From NCBI GenBank assembly GCA_003586005.1, contig NSKI01000016.1, positions 1 through 53,212 on the forward strand: a stretch of DNA of 53,212 nucleotides, given 5' to 3'. The notes under the pieces were generated by a model that saw nothing but the letters and a program-made list of their open reading frames with translations, ran no database searches and was not told the DNA's origin. Shown piece by piece: positions 1 to 46,361 of this stretch (position 1 is the stretch's first letter; each line of letters starts with the position of its first letter). The DNA is from Haloplasmatales bacterium 4B (GTDB taxonomy: Bacteria > Bacillota_I > Bacilli_A > Haloplasmatales > Haloplasmataceae). The position numbers and the translations under genes are program-made.

Positions 1-63
1 AATTCATTTAGAATCACCTTCCATTATATTTCAATATCCAATTAACCTTTACTTATTTAGATT
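1..63. repeat. Left arm of a 63-bp perfect inverted repeat around arsR
   Basis: Bases 1-63 are the exact reverse complement of 639-701. Identity stops abruptly at base 64; the left limit is unknown because the window starts here. The right arm carries the last arsR codons, the spacer, the ribosome-binding site and the first bases of the permease gene. The left arm therefore holds a minus-strand copy of that permease start (ATG at 7-5) reading out of the window. It may be a second, divergent permease copy, an invertible segment boundary, or a contig-end fold-back artefact. Confidence 0.93.
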
Positions 64-85
64 ATTAATAGTTTATCCAATTTAT

Positions 86-114
86 TATTTAATAACTACC
101 AATAATTATGTCAA
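86..114 (-). promoter_or_regulatory. Candidate leftward promoter upstream of the left repeat arm
   Basis: On the minus strand, TTGACA (114-109) is followed after 17 nt by TAAATA (91-86). Transcription would run left into the copied permease start at 7-5. This is a pattern match only, in very AT-rich DNA. The rest of 64-240 shows no gene. Confidence 0.4.
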
Positions 115-240
115 AATAATTCTCTACAATAACTTTCATTATTATAACATTTTTCCAAATAATTATATATTAATTTTTAACAATATACCAGATGTATTTT
201 AATTATTTTTTTAAAGTAAAATTATAAAATATTTTTTTAA

Positions 241-294
241 TTGACAAATTAAATTACTTGATAGTATAATACTTATATGCGTATAAAGGCATAT
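241..294 (+). promoter_or_regulatory. Promoter and probable ArsR operator of the arsenic operon
   Basis: TTGACA (241-246) and TATAAT (265-270) are separated by 18 nt. Just downstream, ATATGC (275-280) and GCATAT (289-294) form an inverted repeat with an 8-nt spacer, in the position expected for an ArsR/SmtB-family operator that blocks initiation. The promoter elements are clear; the operator role is inferred from the adjacent regulator gene. Confidence 0.8.
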
Positions 295-313
295 GATAAT
301 AGGAGGTGCAAAT

Positions 314-649
314 TTGAACAATTTAACAAATTTTTATAAAATACTATCCGATGAAACTAGAATAAGAATTCTTATGCTTCTAAAGCAAAAAAAATTATGT
401 GTTTGTGAGCTTTGTGGAATCATGGAAGAATCGCAACCTAAAATTTCTAAACATTTAGCGAAGTTAAGAGACATAGGGCTCATTATTGATGAGCGTCACC
501 AACAGTTTGTTTTTTATTCCTTGCGAAAAGATAACAAATTATATTTAGATACATTAAATATTTTAGTTGAAGCTATAGACGATTACCCTCTTATAAAAAA
601 AGATTTAGAAAAAAGCAAAGATGCTGAAAAATATATTGAATCTAAATAA
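314..649 (+). CDS. arsR: ArsR-family arsenite-responsive repressor
   Basis: Winged-helix repressor of 111 residues, first gene of the arsenic operon. The recognition region holds the pair C29-V-C31-E-L with a further C34. This matches the CVC metalloid-binding motif of classical ArsR proteins, whose As(III) or Sb(III) binding releases DNA. I chose the TTG start at 314 because AGGAGG (301-306) lies 7 nt before it; the longer frame from ATG 293 would place this site inside the gene and overlap the operator half-site. The last codons lie in the right inverted-repeat arm. The product very likely represses its own operon through the site at 275-294. Function rests on family motif and context. Confidence 0.93.
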   Translation: MNNLTNFYKILSDETRIRILMLLKQKKLCVCELCGIMEESQPKISKHLAKLRDIGLIIDERHQQFVFYSLRKDNKLYLDTLNILVEAIDDYPLIKKDLEKSKDAEKYIESK

Positions 650-701
650 GTAAAGGTTAATTGGATATTGAAATATAATGGAAGGTGATTCTAAATGAAT
701 T
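639..701. repeat. Right arm of the 63-bp inverted repeat
   Basis: Exact reverse complement of 1-63. It spans the arsR stop, the intergenic spacer, the GAAGGTGATT ribosome-binding site (681-690) and the first 7 bases of the permease gene. The arms enclose 575 bp carrying only arsR and its promoter, so recombination between arms would flip the regulator relative to the permease. Confidence 0.93.
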
Positions 702-2818: not shown

Positions 2819-3034
2819 TTATAATAAATCTATTCCAACAACCTCGTACCCTACTTCATCAATTGCCAATTTAATATCTTCATCTTTAACATTATCATTT
2901 GCATTTAATAAAGCATATTTCCCTTCTAAAGATACATTTACATTTGTTATTCCACTCAATTCAGATAACGCCTCTGTAACATGCATAACACAGTGTCCGC
3001 AGCTCATTCCTTCAATTAAAATTTTCTTTTTCAT
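2819..3034 (-). CDS. copZ: Copper chaperone CopZ
   Basis: A single heavy-metal-associated domain of 71 residues with the Cu(I)-binding motif GMSCGHC near residues 9-15. It is a cytoplasmic carrier that hands copper to the amino-terminal domains of CopA. AGGAGG lies 7 nt before the ATG. The gene follows copA by 24 nt in the csoR-copA-copZ order, so it is almost certainly co-transcribed and induced by copper through CsoR. Length and motif are normal for the family. Confidence 0.93.
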   Translation of the reverse strand: MKKKILIEGMSCGHCVMHVTEALSELSGITNVNVSLEGKYALLNANDNVKDEDIKLAIDEVGYEVVGIDLL

Positions 3035-3058
3035 TATATATTCCTCCTATATATTTTT

Positions 3059-5518
3059 TTATTTTGCTGGTTTAAATCTTTTTAATCTTAATGCATTTAG
3101 TAATACTGAAACAGAACTAAAACTCATCGCTAAAGCTGCAATCATCGGTTTCAAAAGTGGACCATCAAAGATATATAACAGCCCCATAGCAATTGGTATA
3201 CCCAAAGAATTATAAGCAAATGCCCAAAATAAATTTTCTTTAATATTTCTTATAGTACTTTTACTTAAACTTATTGCTGTAGGAACATCCATTAAATTAC
3301 TTCTCATAAGCACTATATCTGCTGATTCTATAGCAACATCAGTTCCTGAGCCGATTGCGATACCAATATCAGCTTGAGCTAATGCTGGTGCATCATTTAT
3401 TCCATCACCAACCATTGCTACTTTCTCCCCTTTTTCCTGAAGTTTTCTTACTTCGTTAGCCTTATCTTCAGGAAGAACCTCAGCTAAAACTATATCGATA
3501 CCAACTTGTTTAGCAATCGCTTTGGCAGTTCTTTTATTATCACCAGTAATCATCGCTACTTGGATACCCATTTGATGAAGCTTTTCAACAGCTAACTTAC
3601 TATGCTCTTTAACGACATCAGCAACTGCGATAATTCCGGATAATTTTTTGTTAATGGCTACATACATTGGCGTTTTGCCTTCGCTAGCAAGTTTATCTGA
3701 GATATCTTCTAGATTTTCTAAATCGATATTATTTTCAATTATTAATTTTCTATTTCCGAGTAATATATCATTACCATTAATTCTAACTTCAATTCCATGA
3801 CCTGGTATTGCTTTAAATGACTCATGAGAAATTAATTCTAACCCTAGATCTTCTGCACCTATCACAATTGCTTCTCCAAGTGGATGTTCCGAACCTTTTT
3901 CTGCTGATGCGGCGTATTGCAATAATTCATTTTGTGTTATATTATTGTTAACAATTATATCTGTTACCTTTGGTTTACCCTCTGTAATCGTACCTGTTTT
4001 ATCAAATACAATTGTTTTTATCTTATGCGTAGTTTCTAGTGCTCCTCCACTTTTAATCAAGACTCCATACTCTGCACCTTTACCAGTTCCAACCATAATA
4101 GCCGTTGGCGTTGCTAATCCCAAAGCACAAGGACATGCAATTACTAAAACGGAAATAAATATTGTTAATGAAAATATAGTTGATTTATCACCAATAAAAT
4201 ACCAAGCAAGTGCGGATACTGCAGCAATTACTAAAACAACAGGAACAAAATACCCAGAAATTATATCAGCTAATTTAGCTATAGGAGCCTTAGAACCTTG
4301 AGCATCTTCTACTAGTTTAATAATTTGCGCTAAAGCTGTATCTTTACCAACTTTTGTAGCTCTATATTTTATCGTACCATTTTTATTGATACTAGCTCCA
4401 ATAATATTATCGCCAGAAGTTTTTTCTACAGGAATGCTTTCACCTGTAAGCATCGACTCATCGACTGATGTATTACCCTCCACAACTTCTCCATCAACAG
4501 GCATTTTTTCTCCTGGTTTTACGATAATAATATCTCCAACTTCAACTTCTTCAATAGATAAATCTATTTCTTTACCATCTTTAAGAATGATTGCTGTTTT
4601 AGGTGCTAAACCCATTAATTTTTTTATTGCTTCTGATGTTTTTCCTTTTGTTACTGCTTCTAAATATTTTCCAAGCAATATCAATGTTATAATTACGCCA
4701 GCAGCTTCAAAATACAATTCGCCTGTATACTCAACATTTCCATTATATATCTGCACAATAGCATATAAGCCATATAAAAAAGCAGCTGAGCTACCTATAG
4801 CAATAAGTGAATCCATATTAGGGCTCCGTTTAATTAATGTCTTAAATCCAACTGTAAAGAACTTATAACCAGCAATCATCACTGGTATAGTTAAAAGAAG
4901 TTGAGTTATCGCAAAAATCCTAGGATTTATCATTGGGTCAATAAAACCAGGTAAATTTAAACCAATTAAATCACCAAGCATGTGTCCCATTGCTATATAA
5001 AGTAGGGGAATTGTAAAAACAGCTGATACAATAAACTTTTTTAATAAAAGTTGTATTTCTTTTTCTTTTTTCGCTTTATCAGCGTCTATAGTTGTTTCTA
5101 CTTCTACTGCTTTATAGCCAGCCTTTTCTACAGCGTTTTTAATGTTTACGACATTTACTAAAGTTGGTTCATAGCTAATATTTAACTTCTCTGTTGCGAA
5201 GTTAACATTTACAGCTGTAACTCCATCGAGTTTTTTAGTTGCTCTTTCTACCGCTTTTACGCATGAAGCACAAGTCATTCCTTCAATAGTAAATTTTTTA
5301 CTAACAGCCTCCGTTGTGGCTTTATATCCAGCTTTTTCAACAGCTGATTGTATTTCTCTACTAGAAATTTTAGTTTCATCAAAATTAATATTTAACTTCT
5401 CTGTAGCGAAATTAACATTTACTTCTGTGACTCCATCTAGTTTTTTTGTTGCTCTTTCAATTGCTTTTGCACAAGATGCGCAAGTCATTCCTTCTAGTTT
5501 AAAAACTTTTTTATCCAT
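3059..5518 (-). CDS. copA: Cu(I)-exporting P1B-type ATPase
   Basis: 819 residues. Two amino-terminal metal-binding domains (about 4-67 and 74-138) each carry GMTCASC. Then come eight membrane helices, the actuator motif TGES, the transmembrane copper site CPC (about residue 461), the phosphorylation site DKTGT (about 506), the nucleotide-site HPL motif and the hinge GDGINDAP. The last helix has [15 protein letters not shown] with the Met and Ser residues typical of Cu(I) pumps. It exports cytosolic copper using ATP. The two metal-binding domains are strikingly alike, down to [16 protein letters not shown] in both, suggesting an internal duplication. It lies between csoR (16 nt) and copZ (24 nt). 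Confidence 0.96.
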
Positions 5519-5534
5519 TTCTTACTCCTTCTTA

Positions 5535-5801
5535 TTATTTATCAGCTAGCCTAGATAATATTTCCATTATTTCAATAATTTTTTCATTGCCATTACCATG
5601 TTCAAAAGCTTCTTTAACACAGCTATTCATATGCTGTTCTAATATCAACAAGTTAGCCTTTTTCAAAAGAGATTGCGCTGCCATAATTTGATTTGATATA
5701 TCAACACAATACCTGTTATCATTTAACATTTTTATAACTGCTTCAATCTGACCTCTTGCAGTTTGTAGTGATTGTAGTGCTTTTTTTCGATGACTATTCA
5801 T
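5535..5801 (-). CDS. csoR: Copper-sensing repressor CsoR
   Basis: All-helical DUF156-type repressor of 88 residues. The Cu(I) ligand set C32, H57 and C61 is intact (YCVDIS and LEQHMNSC), equivalent to the Cys-His-Cys site of characterised CsoR proteins. Copper binding releases the operator and opens the csoR-copA-copZ operon. GGAGG lies 7 nt before the ATG. A GC-rich operator sits directly upstream at 5817-5835, as expected for autoregulation. CsoR relatives sensing nickel or formaldehyde differ in ligands, so copper is the best reading. Confidence 0.94.
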   Translation of the reverse strand: MNSHRKKALQSLQTARGQIEAVIKMLNDNRYCVDISNQIMAAQSLLKKANLLILEQHMNSCVKEAFEHGNGNEKIIEIMEILSRLADK

Positions 5802-17069: not shown

Positions 17070-17306
17070 TAAAAAAAGCACCCTTAAATCTAAGGACGCT
17101 AAAATACGTGGTACCACCCTAGTTGCAAGAAATAATTCCTGCCACTTAAATACTTATAACGCAAGTTCACGATACATACTACTAAGATTACCTGTTCGCA
17201 CATATAACTCAAAGGCTAGTTCACAATTTCTTCCCTGGATTTTCACCAAACAGCCAGTCTCTACATGTAAAGAAAATTGCTAATACTCCTAATCATCGTT
17301 TTATAT
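17070..17306 (-). ncRNA. T-box leader of leuS (specifier CUA, Leu)
   Basis: The minus strand contains GGGTGGTACCACG, the antiterminator T-box sequence that pairs with the tRNA acceptor end (about 17119-17107). It is followed by the terminator AGCGTCCTTA...TAAGGGTGCT and a T run (17094-17070). Upstream, stem I carries the specifier loop GAACTAGCC; the codon CTA is at 17219-17217, a leucine codon. Uncharged tRNA-Leu should favour antitermination and leuS expression. The element fills the 305-nt gap between leuS and the DUF1189 gene. Confidence 0.95.
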
Positions 17307-22591: not shown

Positions 22592-22718
22592 AAATAAAAA
22601 ACCTCTTGAAAAGATCAAGAGATTTAGAGTCATCTGTCTTTCCCTACGCTAGCATTACCTAGACCAGGTTCAACGGGTCGTTAATTTAATAACCTCTCAG
22701 CCTTATAAGCTCCCCAAA
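22592..22718 (-). ncRNA. TPP (THI-box) riboswitch controlling thiT
   Basis: On the minus strand the aptamer runs GGGGAGC, GGCTGAGAGG, then GACCCGTTGAACCTGGTCTAG and GTAATGCTAGCGTAGGGA, matching the conserved THI-box core (CUGAGA, ACCCGUUGAACCUGAUCUGG, UAAUGCCAGCGUAGGGA). It is followed by a terminator, CTCTTGA...TCAAGAG with TTTTTTA (22621-22592). ATGACT before and AGTCAT after the terminator can also pair. TPP binding should switch off thiT. Confidence 0.97.
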
Positions 22719-22782
22719 ATTAAATTGTACACATATATTATAACAATAATAAATATGTTTGTAAATTAAATTGCTTAATTTT

Positions 22783-46107: not shown

Positions 46108-46206
46108 TTACTTTCTAAAAAAATAAAAAAACCATAGAGAGACTATGGTTAGTAATAATATCAAAAAAGACACAAATAAGTTGTGATAAATTGTTGTGAA
46201 AACCAT
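46108..46206 (-). CDS. Possible 32-residue membrane peptide behind the riboswitch
   Basis: An ATG frame starting 4 nt after GAGGGAG, the sequence that closes the riboswitch aptamer, encodes MVFTTIYHNLF, a hydrophobic helix (about residues 12-30) and a final RK. The frame runs through the terminator hairpin, and its TAA is followed at once by the ribosome-binding site of the nucleotidyltransferase gene. It could be a real one-helix membrane protein, a leader peptide whose translation affects termination, or chance in T-rich DNA. No family is recognised. Confidence 0.4.
   Translation of the reverse strand: MVFTTIYHNLFVSFLILLLTIVSLWFFYFFRK
46120..46150 (-). terminator. Expression-platform terminator of the c-di-AMP riboswitch
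   Basis: On the minus strand AACCATAG (46150-46143), loop TCTCT, CTATGGTT (46137-46130), then TTTTTTATTT. An alternative helix is possible in which GAGGGA and ATGGTT just after the aptamer pair with TCTCTC and AACCAT, which would undo the terminator. Confidence 0.88.
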
Positions 46207-46209
46207 TTT

Positions 46210-46328
46210 TCTCCCTCAACGCTTACGAAGTTAGCTGCCGGGCTCGGTTTGAAAGAGTTAACCTATTCTTTAAAAGAAATTCGCCCCAAAAATGGGTCCT
46301 CCGTTTCAATAAGTGAATTCAGCGTTTT
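46210..46328 (-). ncRNA. c-di-AMP riboswitch (ydaO/yuaA class)
   Basis: On the minus strand the aptamer opens with AACGCT (46326-46321). It continues with GGAGGACCCA, TTGGGGCGAATT, GGTTAAC and CCGAGCCCGGCAGC, and closes with AGCTAACTTCGTAAGCGTTG, whose AGCGTT (46223-46218) pairs with AACGCT as P1. These are the conserved blocks of the ydaO/yuaA family, which binds c-di-AMP and usually turns expression off. Typical targets are potassium transport and wall-remodelling genes. Here the first full gene downstream is a CD-NTase-like enzyme. Confidence 0.95.
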
Positions 46329-46332
46329 GTAT

Positions 46333-46361
46333 ATTATAACATTATAATTGCATAAATGCAA
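46333..46361 (-). promoter_or_regulatory. Promoter of the riboswitch transcript
   Basis: On the minus strand TTGCAT (46361-46356), 17 nt, TATAAT (46338-46333). The predicted start is at or next to the first P1 base of the aptamer. Confidence 0.8.

Follow-up and report, generated by a model that had tools for sequence, protein, structure and literature searches.

The question raised by this locus is whether a perfect inverted repeat that brackets an arsR gene belongs to the chromosome, where it might form part of a genetic switch, or whether it was generated while the sequence was being prepared or assembled. The window that we analyzed spans contig C12 in full (53,212 bp), which belongs to a draft genome of the Haloplasmataceae family (2.26 Mb in 77 contigs); window and contig share their first base, with no sequence further to the left. 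An earlier, sequence-only reading had proposed that arsR lies between two divergent permease starts on a segment that recombination between the repeat arms could invert, and had named as its alternative a fold-back of assembly or amplification at the contig end.

A perfect inverted repeat flush with the contig end

Script comparison of the two arms confirmed the exact 63-bp repeat described by the sequence-only reading: bases 1-63 are the reverse complement of bases 639-701 at 63 out of 63 positions, the arms are separated by 575 bp, and their identity drops to background at base 64 and beyond. The repeat search returned the same pair of arms, padded to 74 bp at 93%. Within 701 bp of that composition approximately 6e-29 such pairs are expected by chance, and a chance origin of the repeat is therefore excluded. 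The 63-mer has no further occurrence in the readable genome.

Read on the minus strand, the left arm (1-63) carries the final arsR codons with the stop codon, then the ribosome-binding site and the opening codons of the permease gene; it cuts across two genes without respecting any unit. The right arm (639-701, plus strand) is the genuine junction between the arsR stop, the ribosome-binding site and the permease start; it lies inside a continuous arsR-permease operon with the same gene order as in relatives, and it is the source of the copied sequence. We interpret the left arm as a fold-back (chimeric) extension rather than as chromosomal sequence, and place the presumed artificial junction between bases 63 and 64, where the loss of identity is sharp and from where the G+C content is low as far as about base 260.

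The repeat is also rare. The search for other exact inverted repeats of at least 25 bp with a loop of 30-2500 bp in 853 kb of sequence (C12 and 800 kb of other contigs) found none, which leaves the arm flush with the first base of C12 as the only looped repeat of this kind. Nothing would lead a natural repeat to lie flush with the contig terminus, as this sole example does. Repeats of the kind formed by 1-63 and 639-701 were absent in all 23 relatives checked.

The arsR operon

The genes to the right of the repeat form a run on the plus strand. A sigma-70-type promoter (TTGACA-18-TATAAT, 241-270) matches the consensus at 12 of 12 positions and is followed at 271-296, between the promoter and the ribosome-binding site, by the imperfect palindrome ACTTATATGCGTATAAAGGCATATGA. 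This palindrome is likely to be the ArsR operator, and counterparts (CTTATATACGCATATAGGTATATAAG and similar) occupy the same place in the Haloplasmataceae-family relatives L163 and L202. The arsR gene (293-649, with a start at 293, or at 314 as in relatives) encodes an ArsR/SmtB metalloregulator (NF033788, 80.2 bits against a cut-off of 55; PF01022). Downstream of it lie the genes for an ArsP_1-family permease (695-1741; PF03773, E = 9e-69), for a thioredoxin-like protein of the MTH895/ArsE family (1750-1980; TIGR00412, 108 bits against a cut-off of 62; PF13192) and, as the last gene of the run, for a DUF2703 protein (2009-2527; PF10865, E = 4e-34). The locus hence has what an ArsR-regulated ArsP_1 operon comprises, namely an ArsR/SmtB regulator followed by a PF03773 permease, with a promoter and an operator palindrome, and the order arsR-permease-thioredoxin is the same in relatives. 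Very probably it is an ordinary rightward ArsR-regulated arsR-arsP-thioredoxin-DUF2703 operon for arsenic resistance and not a genetic switch.

The proposal of divergent permease starts around an invertible arsR segment found no support. The leftward promoter pair suggested at 114-86 was not recovered by our promoter scan, and the number of promoter-like sites in the region (21) was that of shuffled sequences (22.2 +/- 4.7). The second permease gene that the proposal entails was looked for in the readable genome, in which 25 contigs shorter than 3 kb are masked, and was not found. The left arm is a fragment of a gene junction ended by the end of the contig, and none of the 23 relatives carries an inverted copy. 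Examination of synteny gave no true left neighbour for arsR, as the three relatives examined each have a different gene upstream of it.

Other features of the contig were noted in passing. The copper-resistance genes csoR-copA-copZ (2819-5801, minus strand) adjoin the arsR operon and make up with it a small metal-resistance cluster. A T-box leader before a leuS-like gene (17089-17305), a TPP riboswitch (22624-22726) and a c-di-AMP riboswitch (46206-46334), all of them on the minus strand, score above the Rfam gathering threshold. At the right end of C12 (52698-53210) a minus-strand open reading frame is also cut, in AT-rich sequence, and this end overlaps no readable contig end.

Overlaps and dead ends in the assembly

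We examined both ends of all 77 contigs, of which 104 ends were readable, the 25 contigs shorter than 3 kb being masked. Overlaps between contig ends measured exactly 77 bp in 23 cases, from which we conclude that the assembler most likely used k = 77. Among the 56 ends that share sequence, 46 have overlaps of at least 77 bp and 10 have shorter ones, including the 63 bp of C12. A graph built with k = 77 merges identical arms, so that an authentic arm of at least 77 bp would show up as an overlap of 77 bp or more and not as one of 63. The overlap in C12 falls short of k and has the look of a dead end, where reads stop before k bases, rather than that of a collapsed repeat. The notion that the arm was cut by a k-mer length of 63 was rejected, as the shared-end overlaps of this assembly measure 77 bp and not 63. 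In a separate case, the right end of contig C15 and the left end of contig C3 have a 70-bp match in common, with further partial matches at a spacing of about 72 bp, which suggests a repeat array split between the two contigs.

Two other contig ends retain sequence from library construction. At the left end of C11, bases 1-82 are made up of Illumina P5, an index, Nextera N5 and the mosaic end and contain several base errors; at the right end of C8, the last 19 bases begin with a mutated mosaic end. These adapter remains show that uncorrected read tails survive at dead ends of this assembly and that the library was made by tagmentation. Dead ends are in addition AT-rich, with a median G+C content of 0.22 over their last 100 bases, and the G+C content of C12 between 64 and 263 is 0.13; this stretch is consistent with failing coverage, in which a single odd read might settle where the contig ends. 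No further fold-back, exact or approximate, was found at the other readable ends among the 104, the remaining approximate hits being simple hairpins, and when 28 other dead ends were compared, by their terminal 50 bases, with the rest of the genome, only imperfect repeats and no clean chimeras came up.

Origin of the repeat

The position of the arm at the contig terminus, its length relative to k, its rarity, the adapter remains at two other contig ends and the AT-richness of the neighbouring sequence all favour the fold-back that the sequence-only reading had offered as its alternative. We put the probability that 1-63 is a fold-back (inverted-chimera) artefact, arising at the contig end from library making or from assembly, at about 87%. 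This verdict is a strong inference and not a proof: what we observed comprises the repeat and where it lies, the k-mer signature, the adapter sequence at other dead ends and the absence from relatives, and from these we infer a chimeric molecule and a coverage gap. While the library was being amplified or prepared, one single strand read leftward, toward descending coordinates, may have come to an end close to base 64 and primed again on its own complement, some 575 bp distant; in the molecule so formed, the minus strand at 64 would be joined to the plus strand from 639 onward. True coverage would have run out in the very AT-rich region upstream of arsR, and the assembler, with k = 77, would have kept the chimeric read as a dead end, stopping 63 bases in, short of the 77 needed to merge with the genuine copy. 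Under this explanation the true left neighbour of the operon is absent from C12.

Some observations weigh against the artefact. The arm is free of errors over its 63 bases, unlike the error-rich adapter junk at C11, and so clean a match indicates that it came from a good-quality read or from several reads, which speaks slightly against one bad read. Fold-back is seen at just one of the 104 readable ends and is thus not common in this assembly, and the 25 masked contigs shorter than 3 kb could hold a second copy.

Such a second copy would be expected had part of the permease operon really been duplicated in inverted orientation to the left of arsR, as a divergent second permease or its remnant, with the contig broken inside it. 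The exact identity across the arsR stop, the ribosome-binding site and the ATG would suit a duplication of this kind, as would the masked small contigs, but arms of at least 77 bp would have merged in the graph and left the longer overlap seen at 46 other ends, the readable genome has no second permease, and the relatives lack any inverted copy; we regard this origin as improbable. An arm of 63-76 bp would escape the argument from merging, and the perfect arms do flank a regulator, so that the segment 64-638 might be inverted to switch the operon. On this supposition coverage would have to have failed, by coincidence, no more than 0-13 bp from where the arm ends. It also has against it the want of an outward-reading promoter in the left arm, above the level of chance, and of a readable second permease toward which inversion could redirect one, together with the absence of any other looped repeat of such a kind in 853 kb. 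Inversion would also take the arsR promoter and operator away from the permease gene. Among the readable contigs no second arrangement of the segment was seen. We consider it very unlikely that a real short repeat makes the segment invertible, and a shade more unlikely again that arsR is thereby a cassette coupled with and uncoupled from a metalloid-efflux permease in a phase-variable arsenic-resistance switch. A real arm would point to a metal-resistance regulator that can be switched.

That the sequence folds back near a contig end might also bring to mind the hairpin telomeres by which linear replicons can be covalently closed. Such telomeres fold right at the end of the DNA, around a loop only a few bases long, whereas here 575 bp lie between the arms, on which ground we rejected this possibility. 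The contig also carries what, to judge by the translations, are core chromosomal genes (groEL-, leuS- and ribD-like), and we give the hairpin hardly any credence.

As an artefact, the repeat is a useful warning that, in short-read drafts, terminal inverted repeats lying flush with contig ends call for a test against the assembly k, and another against adapter junk at other contig ends, before they are given a biological meaning.

Comparison with known systems

Invertible promoter or regulator segments flanked by inverted repeats are a known class, and the locus shares with them the inverted arms around a regulatory gene; it differs in that one arm sits at a contig end, with no outward promoter and no second orientation seen.

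The resemblance to inverted fold-back chimeras extends to an inverted join over less than 10 kb, to the skipping of the stretch between and to a terminal place in the assembly, the present case being known from the contig end alone (PMC1855051, PMC10908179). Among 475 chimeras from phi29 amplification, 406 were inverted and 337 of those spanned less than 10 kb, short-distance inverted joins being the dominant class (PMC1855051), and fold-back reads have been described from library preparation (PMC10908179). Our search of the literature on Nextera-specific fold-back at contig ends found nothing specific.

As for the genes themselves, the locus agrees with ArsR-regulated ArsP_1 permease operons in the order of arsR, ArsP_1 permease and thioredoxin-like gene and in having, ahead of arsR, a promoter and a palindromic operator; here a DUF2703 gene follows, and the operon is otherwise ordinary.
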